A DNA stretch of 64,000 bases from Microbacterium enclense (GTDB taxonomy: Bacteria > Actinomycetota > Actinomycetes > Actinomycetales > Microbacteriaceae). Every line of letters starts with the position of its first letter. The stretch's first letter is position 1. The notes under the pieces were generated by a model. It was given only the letters and a program-made list of their open reading frames with translations, had not been told where the DNA came from and made no database searches. Positions 5,989-10,616 of this stretch are shown here, piece after piece. A program made the position numbers and the translations under genes. The stretch covers positions 1-64,000 of the forward strand of contig NZ_RBZY01000004.1 of NCBI RefSeq assembly GCF_004022425.1, in the 5' to 3' direction.

Positions 5989-8103
5989 GTGACCGACACC
6001 GACGCCCGCCCCCTCCCCCCTGTCGCCGCCCGACGCGTGACGACTCGCACCCATCACGGCGACACGTTCGACGACCCGTACGAGTGGCTCCGCGCCAAGG
6101 ACGACGCCGATGTCGTGGCCCACCTCGAGGCCGAGAACGCCTATACCGACGCGCGGACCGCGCACCTGGCCTCCCTCCGTGACGAGATCTTCGGCGAGAT
6201 CAAGGGTCGGACGCTCGAGACCGACCTCTCGGTCCCCGTCCGCCGCGGCGACTGGTGGTACTACGGGCGGACCGTGGCCGGGGCCCAGTACGGCATCCAG
6301 TGCCGGGCGCCGCTGGCCTCCCCCGACGACTGGACGCCGCCGCGGCTCTCTCCCGACGTCCCGGTCCCGGGTGAGCAGGTGCTGTTCGACGGCAACATCG
6401 AGGCCGAGGGCACCGAATTCTTCTCGCTCGGCAGCTTCGAGGTCTCGAACGACGGCACCCGCATGCTCTACGGCATCGACGTCGCGGGCGACGAGCGGTA
6501 CACCGTGCGCGTGCGCGACCTCGTGACCGGCGAGACGCTCGCCGACGAGATCCCCGGCACCTTCTCGGGCGCGACGTTCTCGCCCGACGGACGCTTCATC
6601 GTCTACACCACCGTCGACGACGCGTGGCGCCCCGACACCGTGTGGCTGCACGAGATCGGCACGGGCGTGGATGCCGACGTGCAACTGTTCCACGAACCCG
6701 ACGAGCGGTACTGGGTCGGCGCCGACTTCACCCGCAGCGACCGGTTCCTCGTCATCGGAGTCGGGTCCTCGATCACGTCGGAGGAGCGCCTCATCGACGC
6801 CGACGACCTCCGCGGCGAAGCCCGCGTGGTCTGGCCGCGGCGCGAGGGCGTGGAGTACTCGAGCGAGCACGCCGTCGTCGACGGCCAGGACGTGCTGTAC
6901 ATCCTGCACAACGACGGCGCGCTCGACTTCGAGCTCGTCCGGGTACCGGCATCCGATCCGCAGGGCGCCCGCGAGACCGTGATCCCCCACCGTCCGGGCG
7001 AACGCCTCCTCGGCGTCGACACGTTCCGCGACTGGGGCGTCGTCGCGTACCGCCGCGACGGTCTCGCACGCCTGGGCCTGCTGTCGTACGCCGAGGCGGC
7101 GGTGAGCGAGATCGCGTTCGACGAGCCGCTCTACAGCGTCGGTACCGGCGGCAACCCCGAGTGGGCGCCGCCCGTGCTGCGCGTGGGCTACGGCTCGTTC
7201 GTCACGCCGGGCACCGTCTACGACTACGTCATCGAGACCGGTGAGCTGCTGCTCCGCAAGCGGCAGCCGGTGCTCGGCGGCTTCGATCCCGCCGACTACG
7301 GTCAGGCGCGCGCGTGGGCCACGGCCGAAGACGGCACCCGAGTGCCGGTGTCGCTGGTGTGGAAGCGCTCGTTCGGTGAGCCCGGCGCTTCGCCGCGTCC
7401 GGTGCACCTGTACGGCTACGGCTCGTACGAGCACTCGATCGAGCCCGGGTTCTCGATTCCGCGGCTGTCCCTGCTCGACCGCGGAGTGATCTTCGCCGTG
7501 GCCCACGTGCGGGGCGGCGGCGAGATGGGCCGCCAGTGGTACGAGGACGGCAAGCTGCAGTCCAAGCGCAACACGTTCAGCGACTTCGTCGCGGTGGCGC
7601 GGCACCTCGTGGCATCCGGATACACCTCCCCCGATCGTCTCGTCGCCGAGGGCGGCAGCGCGGGCGGTCTGCTGATGGGCGCGGTCACGAACCTCGCCCC
7701 CGAGCTGTTCGCCGGCATCCTCGCCGACGTCCCGTTCGTGGACGCCCTGACCACGATCCTCGACCCCTCGCTGCCGCTCACCGTCATCGAGTGGGACGAG
7801 TGGGGCGACCCGCTGCACGACGCCGACGTCTACGCCTACATGAAGTCGTACACGCCGTACGAGAACGTTCGCGAGGGCGTGACGTACCCGCGCATCCTCG
7901 CCGTCACCTCGCTCAACGACACGCGCGTGCTGTACGTCGAGCCGGCCAAGTGGGTGCAGCGCCTGCGCGAGGTGGGTGCCGACGCGCTGCTGAAGTGCGA
8001 GATGGTGGCCGGCCACGGCGGCGTCAGCGGCCGTTACAACGCGTGGCGGGAACGGGCGTTCGAGCTGGCGTGGCTGTTGGACGTGCTGGGGCTGGCGAAG
8101 TAG
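5989..8103 (+). CDS. ptrB: Oligopeptidase B (prolyl oligopeptidase family S9A)
   Basis: A 704-residue cytoplasmic serine peptidase that cleaves short peptides after basic residues. An N-terminal beta-propeller domain (roughly residues 70-400) is followed by the alpha/beta-hydrolase domain. The nucleophile Ser is in AEGGSAGGLLMG near residue 558, the Asp is in SLNDTRVLY near 640, and the His is in VAGHGGVSGR near 675. The HVRGGGEMGRQWYEDGK segment is typical of oligopeptidase B. The start is a GTG, supported by TAGCGT 6 nt upstream. The gene is monocistronic; the 48-bp palindrome array begins 22 bp past its stop. Confidence 0.93.
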   Translation: MTDTDARPLPPVAARRVTTRTHHGDTFDDPYEWLRAKDDADVVAHLEAENAYTDARTAHLASLRDEIFGEIKGRTLETDLSVPVRRGDWWYYGRTVAGAQYGIQCRAPLASPDDWTPPRLSPDVPVPGEQVLFDGNIEAEGTEFFSLGSFEVSNDGTRMLYGIDVAGDERYTVRVRDLVTGETLADEIPGTFSGATFSPDGRFIVYTTVDDAWRPDTVWLHEIGTGVDADVQLFHEPDERYWVGADFTRSDRFLVIGVGSSITSEERLIDADDLRGEARVVWPRREGVEYSSEHAVVDGQDVLYILHNDGALDFELVRVPASDPQGARETVIPHRPGERLLGVDTFRDWGVVAYRRDGLARLGLLSYAEAAVSEIAFDEPLYSVGTGGNPEWAPPVLRVGYGSFVTPGTVYDYVIETGELLLRKRQPVLGGFDPADYGQARAWATAEDGTRVPVSLVWKRSFGEPGASPRPVHLYGYGSYEHSIEPGFSIPRLSLLDRGVIFAVAHVRGGGEMGRQWYEDGKLQSKRNTFSDFVAVARHLVASGYTSPDRLVAEGGSAGGLLMGAVTNLAPELFAGILADVPFVDALTTILDPSLPLTVIEWDEWGDPLHDADVYAYMKSYTPYENVREGVTYPRILAVTSLNDTRVLYVEPAKWVQRLREVGADALLKCEMVAGHGGVSGRYNAWRERAFELAWLLDVLGLAK

Positions 8104-8124: not shown

Positions 8125-8172
8125 GTCCCAGTTCCTGCAGAAGCAGGCCGCCCCAGTCGCGCAAAGCGGGAC
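8125..8172 (+). repeat. Palindromic repeat copy A (48 bp), degenerate
   Basis: First of five same-oriented 48-bp units built as a 16-nt left arm, 16-nt core and 16-nt right arm. Left arm GTCCCAGTTCCTGCAG, core aagcaggccgccccag, right arm TCGCGCAAAGCGGGAC. It is the most diverged copy. Its core matches that of copy C at 13 of 16 positions. Confidence 0.8.
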
Positions 8173-8218
8173 ATGCCGTGCGGAGCCGCCGCACCGCGAC
8201 AGGGACCCGATGCCCCAT

Positions 8219-8266
8219 GTCCCACTTCGTGCAAGAAGAGGTCGTCTCCGTCGCACAATGTGGGAC
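8219..8266 (+). repeat. Palindromic repeat copy B (48 bp)
   Basis: Left arm GTCCCACTTCGTGCAA, core gaagaggtcgtctccg, right arm TCGCACAATGTGGGAC. It starts 94 bp after copy A. The arms can pair into a long hairpin with a few mismatches. Confidence 0.85.
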
Positions 8267-8310
8267 ACGGCATCGCTGCGTGGGCTCATCGGTCGCGGCC
8301 CCGCATCCAT

Positions 8311-8358
8311 GTCCCACTTCGTGCAGAAGCAGGCCGTCCGCGTCGCACGAAGTGGGAC
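8311..8358 (+). repeat. Palindromic repeat copy C (48 bp)
   Basis: Left arm GTCCCACTTCGTGCAG, core aagcaggccgtccgcg, right arm TCGCACGAAGTGGGAC. It starts 92 bp after copy B and is the last copy before the DUF559-like gene. Confidence 0.85.
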
Positions 8359-8454
8359 GCGGCCCCGCAAGCGACTACTCCTCCCCCGCGCCGCGATCGG
8401 CTACATCATCCACGAATGGCGTCCCCGTCACTCCGGTGACCCGTGGCGCGCCGC

Positions 8455-8460
8455 CATGCT
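8455..8460 (+). promoter_or_regulatory. Possible -10 element CATGCT before the DUF559-like gene
   Basis: CATGCT, 6 nt, then ATG at 8467. It keeps the A at position 2 and the T at position 6 of the TANNNT pattern, with the usual spacing, but it is weaker than the other examples. Confidence 0.4.
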
Positions 8461-8466
8461 CGGGTG

Positions 8467-9360
8467 ATGGTCGACGAACTTCGAATCTTCTCCGTTCGAG
8501 ATGCCATTGCCGCCGGTCGCTCCCGATTCGCCTTGCGCCGCGTCGGTGTCAGAACGCCCTATCGCGGCATCCGCTCCTCCGCCGGGACACCCGCGTCGGA
8601 CGACCTCCAGGCGCGCGCGGCGGAGTACGTTCCTCGCCTCCGGATCGGACAGTTCTTCAGCCACGAGACGGCGCTGGCATTGCTCGGCGCCCCTCTTCCT
8701 CCGTACCCCTATGTTCCTGGCATCCATGTGTCCGCCCATCGTCCGGCCCGCGAGCCCCGGGTGCCCGGCATCCACGGTCACCGCCTCCAGACGCGCAGTC
8801 CTGCCGTGCTCTCCACCTCCCAGGGCTGGCCCGTCGAGCATCCGGTGAGAGCGTGGCGGCAATGCGGGACGCTGTGGAGGCTCGACGACCTCGTCGCCGC
8901 CGCGGACTTCCTGCTCACCGACGCGAGGCCGAGGATCGAGGCGGACGAACTCGCCACCGAAATCGCCCGCATGGGCGACACGCGCGGGGGCGTACTCACG
9001 CGGGCTCTGGGTCTCAGCCGCTACGGACCGCGTTCGCCTTCCGAAACGCGGCTACGGCTGCTGCTGATACGCCACGGGCTCCCCGAACCCGAGATCTCCT
9101 GGGTGCTGCGAGACGCGAACGGCGTATTCGTCGCCGAGCTCGATCTCGCGTATCCGTCCTGGAAGGTCGCCGCGGAGTACGACGGGCGCGTCCATGCCGA
9201 GGATATGCGCCAGTTCGCTCGCGACGCCGACCGCTGGGATGCCATTCGGGAGTGCGGCTGGCAGCATGTGCGCATCCTCTTCCACCACATGCGCGGCGAC
9301 GGAGCGGTTGCGGTCGGGAAAGTGCGGGAGGCGCTTCGGTGTGCCGGGTGGCGCCGGTGA
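8467..9360 (+). CDS. Putative DUF559 / AbiEi-like PD-(D/E)XK protein
   Basis: A 297-residue protein without strong sequence identity to a characterised enzyme. The C-terminal 90 residues resemble DUF559/Vsr-like PD-(D/E)XK nucleases: SETRLRLLL, then FVAELDLAYPSWKVAAEYDG (candidate D, E and K), RVHAEDMRQFARDADRWDAI and a closing GWQHVRI strand. The N-terminal part looks like the AbiEi-type region often fused to DUF559 in actinobacteria, including GQFFSHETALALLGAP and a GWPVEHPVRAWRQC segment. Nuclease or antitoxin activity is inference. The ATG at 8467 was chosen for its -10-like element. Palindromes A-C lie upstream and D-E begin 11 bp past the stop, which suggests a linked unit. No partner toxin gene is adjacent. 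Confidence 0.7.
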   Translation: MVDELRIFSVRDAIAAGRSRFALRRVGVRTPYRGIRSSAGTPASDDLQARAAEYVPRLRIGQFFSHETALALLGAPLPPYPYVPGIHVSAHRPAREPRVPGIHGHRLQTRSPAVLSTSQGWPVEHPVRAWRQCGTLWRLDDLVAAADFLLTDARPRIEADELATEIARMGDTRGGVLTRALGLSRYGPRSPSETRLRLLLIRHGLPEPEISWVLRDANGVFVAELDLAYPSWKVAAEYDGRVHAEDMRQFARDADRWDAIRECGWQHVRILFHHMRGDGAVAVGKVREALRCAGWRR

Positions 9361-9370
9361 CGCCCGTCGT

Positions 9371-9418
9371 GTCCCACTTCGTGCAGGAATCTGAGACCAG
9401 ATCCGCACGAAGTGGGAC
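9371..9418 (+). repeat. Palindromic repeat copy D (48 bp)
   Basis: Left arm GTCCCACTTCGTGCAG, core gaatctgagaccagat, right arm CCGCACGAAGTGGGAC. It starts 11 bp past the stop of the DUF559-like gene and has the same orientation as copies A-C. Confidence 0.85.
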
Positions 9419-9464
9419 ATGCCGTCGGACGTCGGCTCCCCGCGACAGCCAGACAACCGCCCAT

Positions 9465-9512
9465 GTCCCACTTCGTGCAGAACAGAGCGAGAAAACGTGC
9501 ACAAAGTGGGAC
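9465..9512 (+). repeat. Palindromic repeat copy E (48 bp)
   Basis: Left arm GTCCCACTTCGTGCAG, core aacagagcgagaaaac, right arm GTGCACAAAGTGGGAC. It starts 94 bp after copy D. The flanking CAT and ATG extend its arms to 19 nt. The D-E spacer resembles the A-B spacer: both are 46 bp, begin ATGCCGT, end CCCAT and share CCGCGACAG. Confidence 0.85.
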
Positions 9513-9545
9513 ATGCCGCAACGACCGCGGACCACGAACGACAAC

Positions 9546-9568
9546 GCCCCGCCCCACCGAGGCGGGGC
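9546..9568 (-). terminator. Hairpin behind pfkA
   Basis: GCCCCGCC (9546-9553) pairs perfectly with GGCGGGGC (9561-9568) around a 7-nt loop, 19 bp past the pfkA stop. On the minus strand GTTGTCGTTCG follows, so there is no clean U-tract. A probable terminator. Confidence 0.6.
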
Positions 9569-9587
9569 GAGGCGTCGGAAGCGCACC

Positions 9588-10616
9588 TCAGCCGAAGAGC
9601 GCGGCGGCCTCTTCGTAGCGGTACAGCGGAACGGTGTTGAGCTCGCCCAGCGCGTCGGCGAACGGAACGCGGATGATGTCGGTGCCGCGCATTGCGACCA
9701 TCTGACCCCAGGCCTCGTCGGCGAGCGCGTCAGCGGCGTGCAACCCCAGGCGCGTGGCGAGCACACGGTCGAAGGCGGACGGCGATCCGCCGCGCTGGAT
9801 GTGCCCGAGCACCGTGGCGCGGGTCTCGATGCCGGTGCGGCGCTCGATCTCGGGGGCCAGCAGCTCGCCGATGCCGCCGAGGCGGGGGCGGTTGAAGGCA
9901 TCCAGGCCCTTGTCACTGAATGCCTCTTCCATGCCCGTGAGCTTGAAGCCCTCGGACACGACGACGAGCGGTGCGCGTCCACGATCGTGCGCGCGCGTGA
10001 CCTGCTCGACGATCTCGTCGATGGACATCGGCACCTCGGGGATGCAGATGACGTGGGCGCCGGCGGCGATGCCGGCGTGAAGGGCGATCCAACCGACGTG
10101 GCGGCCCATGACCTCGGCGACCATGCAGCGCTGGTGCGAGTCGCCGGTGGTGCGCAGGCGGTCCATGGCATCCGTCGCGATGTTCACCGCGGTGTCGAAA
10201 CCGAACGAGTAGTCGGTGGCTCGCAGGTCGTTGTCGATCGTCTTCGGCACGCCGAGGACGTTGATGCCGTCCTTCGACAGCCGGTCGGCCGCGGCGAGCG
10301 TGCCCTCGCCACCGATGGCCAGGATGCCGTCGATGCGATGCCCGTACAGCGTCTTGGAGATGTTGTCTGCTCCGCCGCGGACCCCCTCGTAGGGGTTGGT
10401 CCGGCTCGTGCCGAGGATCGTGCCACCGACCTTCGACAGGCCCTTCACCTCGTGGCGGGTGAGCGGGAAGAAGTCGCCGTCGACGACGCCGCGCCAGCCG
10501 TCGCGGATGCCGACGAACTCGATGTCGTGGTTCGTGGTGCCCTTGAGCACGACGCCACGGATGACGGCGTTCAGCCCGGGGCAGTCTCCGCCGCTGGTCA
10601 GGATGCCGATCTTCAT
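9588..10616 (-). CDS. pfkA: 6-phosphofructokinase
   Basis: A 342-residue glycolytic enzyme that phosphorylates fructose 6-phosphate. Signatures are GILTSGGDCPGLNAVIRG at residues 4-21, IGGEGTLAAADRL near 101, VPKTIDNDL near 123 and the substrate segment VMGRHVGWIALHAG near 169. The phosphoryl-donor loop has Gly at the position where PPi enzymes have Asp, which favours ATP, while the Lys of PKTIDND is the residue found in PPi and group III enzymes. The best reading is an ATP-dependent group III enzyme; donor use is inferred. GAGG lies 8 nt before the ATG. A hairpin follows the stop. Confidence 0.93.
   Translation of the reverse strand: MKIGILTSGGDCPGLNAVIRGVVLKGTTNHDIEFVGIRDGWRGVVDGDFFPLTRHEVKGLSKVGGTILGTSRTNPYEGVRGGADNISKTLYGHRIDGILAIGGEGTLAAADRLSKDGINVLGVPKTIDNDLRATDYSFGFDTAVNIATDAMDRLRTTGDSHQRCMVAEVMGRHVGWIALHAGIAAGAHVICIPEVPMSIDEIVEQVTRAHDRGRAPLVVVSEGFKLTGMEEAFSDKGLDAFNRPRLGGIGELLAPEIERRTGIETRATVLGHIQRGGSPSAFDRVLATRLGLHAADALADEAWGQMVAMRGTDIIRVPFADALGELNTVPLYRYEEAAALFG

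Follow-up and report, generated by a model that had tools for sequence, protein, structure and literature searches.

In a 64,000-nucleotide stretch of Microbacterium enclense DNA (contig NZ_RBZY01000004.1, positions 1 to 64,000; hereafter the window), a gene encoding a predicted nuclease is bracketed by five copies of a 48-bp palindrome. We propose, with a probability that we put at about 0.6, that the gene and the palindromes represent a two-part system, made of a nuclease and its cognate 47- to 49-bp inverted repeats. It would resemble the REPtrons formed by repetitive extragenic palindromes (REPs) and their transposases, with unrelated parts. This looks like a nuclease/short-repeat partnership of a new kind, present in Microbacterium and in many other actinobacteria. 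That the nuclease gene and its palindromes are maintained as a unit is, in our opinion, highly probable.

Three of the palindromes, units A (8125..8172), B (8219..8266), and C (8311..8358), are located 5′ of the gene and two, units D (9371..9418) and E (9465..9512), 3′ of it; no strand is assigned to them. All are 48 bp long, with start-to-start distances of 94, 92, 1,060, and 94 bp. These coordinates and lengths reproduce those of the first-pass annotation of this DNA, as does the presence of one gene inside the array between C and D, an open reading frame (ORF) ending at 9360. Unit D starts 10 bp past the stop codon, and the 14-nt arms of unit C are in perfect complement. The left arm, described as nearly invariant, is exact in four of the five units. 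The claim that all units face the same way is weak, because the units are nearly symmetric and their direction is judged only by which arm has drifted. As first described, spacers A–B and D–E are akin (a 76-nt direct repeat with 75% identity), and the cores of units A and C resemble each other. The array looks like the product of a tandem duplication of palindrome plus spacer, an example of which is found at locus L055, where two identical units are 94 bp apart. A CRISPR array was rejected here as it had been in the first-pass annotation: the palindromes have variable cores, the spacers are related, and none of the three annotated neighbors is a cas gene.

With up to three mismatches, the arm GTCCCACTTCGTGCA has 15 matches in the window, compared with 2.04 ± 1.42 in shuffled sequences, none of 100 shuffles reaching 15. 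With up to two mismatches, it has 15 matches in the 3.41-Mb assembly (149 contigs), eight of which are at the array; the other seven are isolated two-mismatch matches elsewhere, and a reversed control pattern gave five. Within the genome assembly, the cluster of 48-bp palindromes is confined to the array locus. A covariance model, R1, derived from 39 units including unit C, matched all five units on both strands, scoring 17.1 bits for A, 37.2 for B, 47.6 for C, 57.7 for D, and 53.2 for E. The E values are at most 9.2e-10 for B to E and 0.0028/0.054 for A, which is therefore considered degenerate. Two further R1 matches (E 0.054 and 0.78) are unconvincing. Neither outcome that the first-pass annotation had named as contrary to its proposal was encountered: the unit is not scattered genome-wide without a link to the gene, being found in this genome at the array locus only, and the array is not unique, since related species keep it. 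Exact units were present in 4 of 58 relatives and a looser unit pattern in 42 of 366 Microbacterium genomes, 307 of which encode homologs of the protein at E ≤ 1e-20.

The gene (8467..9360, + strand) encodes a protein of 297 aa, the ATG at 8467 being judged a more likely start than the possible GTG at 8443. The AlphaFold2 model, obtained with the window protein and 49 relatives, has a pLDDT of 92.9. The protein is predicted to be a fusion of an AbiEi-like domain and a Vsr/homing endonuclease-like domain of the PD-(D/E)XK type. In VIA-align comparisons, residues 1–185 (8467..9021, +) match the AbiEi antitoxin 6y8q (Z 11.0, rmsd 5.4, 171 residues) and, at Z 7.3, 1zel, matches under Z 8 being possibly due to chance. 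Residues 187–296 (9025..9354, +) match the homing endonuclease I-Bth0305I (3r3p; Z 12.4, rmsd 2.3, 95 residues), NGO0050 (Z 11.1), and Vsr (1cw0; Z 9.9). As Foldseek by itself gave no match at E ≤ 0.001, the fold assignment depends on this second look with VIA-align. The sequence profile A3 had no match to solved structures at E ≤ 0.1, and NCBIfam assigns the window protein to no family. The AbiEi models of PADLOC match it weakly (17.3 bits). It scores 13.2 bits with Pfam DUF559 (cut-off 20.6) and 18.8 bits with the MTES_1575 profile (cut-off 38.2), below both thresholds; two of five relatives exceed the DUF559 cut-off (L232 with 24.1 bits and an ORF of genome G029 with 30.9 bits). Three acidic residues, D234, E245, and D247 in the 305-aa numbering (codons within 9142..9183, +), are invariant in 30 of 30 sequences. 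The same residues, D226, E237, and D239 in the 297-aa numbering, are invariant in 50 of 50. Judging from the fold, they are likely catalytic. With dN/dS values of 0.07–0.46 (median 0.13, 17 pairs), the gene is under purifying selection.

The association of palindromes with this gene was analyzed at 110 Microbacterium loci: that of the window, 29 others, and 80 further loci, one of which is a second family gene of the same genome. The groups of orthologs and paralogs were set by match score and not from a tree. In a motif-free scan of the 500 bp to either side of the gene, palindromes of 46 to 56 bp turned up on one or both sides at 56 of 69 loci from closer relatives and at 34 of 41 from more distant ones; 31 and 21 of these, respectively, had them on both sides. 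Control windows located 500–1,000 bp away were positive in 0/67, 2/69, 1/41, and 1/40 cases (4/217), and shuffled flanks in 1.4–2.2%. Searching for units of the form GTC...GAC within 600 bp, we identified 210 units at 98 of the 110 loci, on both sides in 64. A few of these units are likely due to chance, for example one within pfkA in L077 and one in L155. Their lengths are 49 (112 units), 48 (72), 47 (25), and 46 bp (1); 209 of the 210 are 47–49 bp long although 44–53 bp were allowed, the conserved GTC/GAC ends resulting from the search itself. The arms are lineage-specific: TGTCCCACTTCGTGC in the window, and TGTCCCGAAGTTGG, GAGGTCCCAGTTGGGCCGGG, AGTGTCCAAGACACGCCG, and TGTCTCACTTATTCAG in other lineages.

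In spite of these differences in sequence, symmetry is conserved. In alignment A1, which comprises 39 units, mostly a single one from each locus, pairing is retained in 90.9% of the arm cells, and 17 of 20 arm pairs have changed on both sides; the other three are the GTC/GAC ends, which the search itself imposes. Cells with a double change number 143, compared with 44 ± 6 after shuffling and no more than 56 after sliding; these counts share ancestry. At the 64 loci with units on both sides, the upstream and downstream half-sites are more similar to each other (identity 0.819) than to their same-side counterparts in the nearest relative (0.749); the within-locus value is higher at 39 of 64 loci, with three ties (Wilcoxon p 0.0018). 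When the nearest relative is less than 75% identical, the values are 0.807 and 0.635, and the within-locus identity is higher at 28 of 31 loci. The sites thus evolve together, over times comparable to those in which the protein changes.

The bracket extends beyond the genus. With profile A2, family members were detected in 101 of 150 genomes from the taxonomic family and in 87 of 148 from the class; the loci taken from them are the top-scoring match per genome, so that the class sample leans to close homologs. We analyzed 57 of these loci (29 and 28, respectively; 55 from other genera) and found a 40- to 70-bp palindrome within 500 bp of the gene in 52 and on both sides in 25, whereas far windows were positive in 8 of 114 cases. 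The sequences of these palindromes are unrelated to those described above. Templated correction is known for imperfect palindromes, and one could imagine ordinary repetitive palindromes made symmetric by this process and lying near the gene family for no functional reason. The orphan units found in genomes without a homolog, described below, would agree with this idea. We consider it most improbable given the control windows and shuffles, the within-locus likeness, and the fact that brackets of unrelated sequence recur in other genera.

Palindromes of the same type are also found away from the gene. R1 has matches at E ≤ 0.001 in 237 of 366 genomes (at most 15 candidates being scored per genome). 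All 66 genomes with a homolog at E ≤ 3.5e-87 are among them, a figure that we do not count as evidence because R1 was trained on such units and the test is partly circular. We inspected 20 sites in seven gene-bearing genomes, together with loci from seven genomes chosen as lacking a strong homolog. These solo sites are mostly single 48- or 49-bp units, and no family gene is present in loci L163–L198. Solo half-sites are 0.81–0.95 identical to the gene-flanking sites of their own genome versus 0.72–0.77 to those of six other genomes, and their cores differ. They are mostly intergenic, 8 of 55 lying inside a called ORF. According to a simple GC-based gene caller, and after L049 and L192 were dropped as duplicates of L172 and L028, 23 gaps with a unit are convergent, 3 divergent, and 21 tandem, compared with 2, 8, and 12 for the other gaps in the same loci (convergent vs. 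divergent, Fisher p 2e-4). Close species share orthologous solo sites; at two of these, L176/L383 and L178/L391, a matching change at arm position 12 affects both arms.

The solo sites also carry information on the form in which the palindromes are read. An extra half-site is present within 150 bp of 23 of 55 solo sites. In 15 of the 55, its distance outward from one arm, whose direct orientation it shares, is exactly 21 bp, or two helical turns, about 13 independent cases as the 15 include two orthologous pairs; three of the 15 (L177, L179, and L180) have a further copy at 42 bp. The number of extra copies varies between species. This arrangement looks like that of phased protein-binding sites. 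In the published description, the binding site of AbiEi consists of two 23-bp inverted repeats with 3 bp between them, 49 bp in total, and that of Rv2827c of paired 23-bp repeats 13 bp apart, spanning 59 bp (PMC7319586). The 47- to 49-bp units agree with the AbiEi site in length. Arm mismatches on the gene strand are G/T in 85 and A/C in 86 cases, and therefore neither strand is favored as RNA. The AbiEi-like geometry together with the 21-bp half-sites argues for sites in double-stranded DNA read by a protein rather than for RNA. We regard it as very probable that the palindromes are recognized by the protein as inverted repeats in double-stranded DNA.

The same data bear on the suggestion, made in the first-pass annotation, of an array of structured RNAs, and more generally on RNA hairpins or terminators at gene ends. 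The units can form hairpins, and both the solo sites and the downstream unit are found at the 3′ ends of genes. Yet the mismatches reveal no preference for G–U pairs, the length is fixed at 47–49 bp around a variable core, and direct half-site repeats at 21 bp cannot form additional hairpins. No match was found in the window by the Rfam scan, and pfkA has a terminator-like stem of its own. The suggestion of structured RNAs finds no support, and hairpins or terminators in general are very unlikely. The stem in question, a GC-rich sequence at about 9545–9569 between unit E and the pfkA stop codon, is probably the pfkA terminator. ARAGORN predicted no tRNA in the window.

If the palindromes are protein-binding sites, they might be operators only: the AbiEi-like part would autoregulate the gene and the nuclease would act elsewhere, for instance on foreign DNA. 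The promoters of AbiEi and Rv2827c, as described in the cited source, contain inverted repeats by which these proteins regulate their own genes (PMC7319586). The upstream unit is mostly 80–200 bp ahead of the start of the matched coding region, and the weak PADLOC matches are to AbiEi. However, a unit of the same sequence is usually also found past the stop codon, often directly (29 at 0–9 bp), and solo sites prefer convergent over divergent gaps, the wrong place for operators. A purely regulatory role is therefore unlikely in our view.

We favor a nuclease acting on its own inverted repeats. One protomer would read each half-site of the duplex, in the manner of AbiEi at its operator of 23+3+23 bp, and the nuclease part would nick or cut at or near the palindrome. 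Repair of the break might then copy palindromes elsewhere and keep the copies alike, as for REPs and their REP-associated tyrosine transposases (RAYTs), and tandem duplication would build arrays like that of the window. For the proposal that the protein copies or homogenizes its sites by cutting, we see an even chance. On a broader scale, though short of even odds, this might be an element of the whole class Actinomycetes, in which a fused AbiEi–Vsr nuclease reads, cuts, and spreads or homogenizes palindromes with the geometry of AbiEi operators, each lineage having its own code, and it could be the founder of many palindrome families in actinobacterial intergenic space.

Alternatively, the protein could be a homing or defense nuclease for which the palindromes mark self or target; the bracket would protect or recombine its own locus, and the sites would not spread. 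The closest match of the nuclease domain, I-Bth0305I (Z 12.4), fits with this possibility, as does the content of the gene's chromosomal place in other genomes. In the window, the gene is located between an S9 peptidase gene (5989–8103, +) upstream and pfkA, encoding phosphofructokinase (9588–10616, −), downstream. In the closest relatives it keeps these neighbors, indicating vertical inheritance. We read this place in 28 genomes, mostly selected for having no strong homolog. G058 carries a full-length homolog (63%). In G067 (L367, G067:C4), a 42-aa C-terminal remnant of the gene beside two weak palindromes represents a decaying copy of the locus. In G069 (L361) and G087 (L368), about 1 kb flanked by other palindromes (CGAGAACAGGC..., GTAGGAG...) contains an ORF whose architecture looks similar by eye, as though alleles had been swapped. 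These contents suggest that the place underwent loss and probably exchange. Conversely, there is no intron, intein, or interrupted gene, the solo sites are mostly intergenic, and, apart from the weak AbiEi matches, PADLOC matched no known defense system. We consider a homing or defense role without spreading of the sites to be quite unlikely, slightly more so than a purely regulatory one. Other ORFs that appear DUF559-like by eye occupy the same place in L362 (G029), L360 (G012), L358 (G343), and L354 (G027); that of G029, the only one of these ORFs tested, is above the Pfam DUF559 cut-off.

Several observations weigh against the two-part system that we propose. Twelve of the 110 Microbacterium loci have no unit. 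Among 24 weaker homologs from a phylum-wide search (three from the same class; the upstream gene ends are approximate), a palindrome was found in 7 and on both sides in none, with 3 of 47 far windows positive. From the comparison with 52 of 57, we conclude that the bracket is a trait of a protein clade, mainly in Actinomycetes, and not of DUF559 proteins generally. Among relatives at least 80% identical, same-side and within-locus likeness are equal, which suggests that homogenization is slow or only partial. R1 is also positive in 171 of 300 other genomes (compared by eye). In genomes G113, G343, and G106, units are present but profile A2 detected no homolog at E ≤ 0.001; in G150 and G149, which also have units, the homologs are partial and weak. 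A solo unit of G320 is missing in G331, where unrelated DNA is present instead of a clean empty site. The window's own genome has no solo sites and therefore gives no demonstration of dispersal. In the covariation counts, selection and templated correction of imperfect palindromes are not separable, and the symmetric arm changes could stem from the latter. Finally, we infer binding, cutting, and movement from comparisons of genomes and predicted structures.

The units of G113, G343, G106, G150, and G149 (L183–L198), some with arms GTCGCACTT..., are orphans or units of another partner. At the position of the G320 solo unit, G331 carries another long palindrome (GGCGTTTCGTCTCGCT...AGCGACGAGACGAAACGCC; L388, about 7690–7790). 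No target-site duplication was seen at this single presence/absence site. The idea of a mobile palindrome unit, also raised in the first-pass annotation, is at this stage a conjecture: presence and absence vary among close species, but the sole site examined does not qualify as a clean empty one.

The second family gene of the window's genome (G000:C65:26571-27056; L162, L023) is N-terminally truncated and is flanked on either side by a palindrome of its own, AGTGTCCAAGACACGCGG, that differs from those of the window. Among plasmids, four records matched at less than 60% identity, one of them partially and on an 11.9-Mb record, and among phages there was one partial match; frequent carriage by mobile DNA is thus not indicated. 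Three genomes of one genus from the class search (G538, G582, and G599) have 10–12 listed family members each. Two close homologs labeled Stenotrophomonas maltophilia and Planococcus sp. (L284, L321) probably come from mislabeled or contaminated assemblies.

Among known systems, the closest in outline are the REPtrons, in which REPs or REPINs are paired with a RAYT (TnpAREP) gene. Like them, the present system associates a mostly single-copy nuclease-type gene, apparently under selection, with bracketing palindromes, tandem repeats, and dispersed intergenic copies that track the gene lineage, here in other species only. RAYTs are described as tyrosine transposases of the HUH type whose substrates are single-stranded hairpins carrying a GTAG motif (PMC8266576); here, the protein is AbiEi- and Vsr-like, and the geometry of the sites suggests double-stranded DNA. 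REPs are reported to carry a GTAG or CGTC tag at the foot of a 20- to 40-bp palindrome (PMC3733652), whereas our units are 46–49 bp long and no such tag was found in the flanks of the listed units. Type IV antitoxins such as AbiEi and Rv2827c share with the present system the predicted fold of residues 1–185 and sites made of inverted repeats, which in the case of AbiEi (49 bp) agree with the units in length. Here, in contrast, the domain is fused to a nuclease domain, sites also lie downstream and elsewhere, and the neighbors are the S9 peptidase gene and pfkA, with no adjacent gene for an AbiEii nucleotidyltransferase toxin. The C-terminal part has the fold of Vsr and NGO0050 and the conserved acidic residues of the Vsr-like DUF559 and REase_MTES_1575 families, and some relatives pass the DUF559 cut-off, but the window protein is under both cut-offs; no cognate DNA repeats for these families are described in the open-access papers searched. 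I-Bth0305I provides the best match for the catalytic domain. Here, the gene is free-standing between genes with palindromes on both sides, and no homing site was found.

In the open-access literature, to which our search was confined (preprints and subscription papers lay outside it), we found no account of palindromes paired with DUF559- or AbiEi-type nuclease genes. We regard the system as new because such proteins are not paired with bracketing plus dispersed palindromes in any homologous known system; in outline, however, it converges on REPtrons. As a pattern, the REP-like family with a nuclease partner proposed in the first-pass annotation is well supported, with the bracket at 98 of 110 Microbacterium loci and 52 of 57 beyond the genus, and solo copies in several genomes.

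To our knowledge, REPs with their RAYTs are the one case of dispersed bacterial palindromes paired with a dedicated nuclease gene that has been studied well. An independent pairing with a different chemistry would, if true, mean that this arrangement evolved more than once. It would also assign a partner to palindromic repeats of actinobacterial intergenic space. With arms specific to each lineage, the family would offer many natural pairs of protein and site for deciphering a code of DNA recognition and, should cutting be confirmed, for programmable nucleases.

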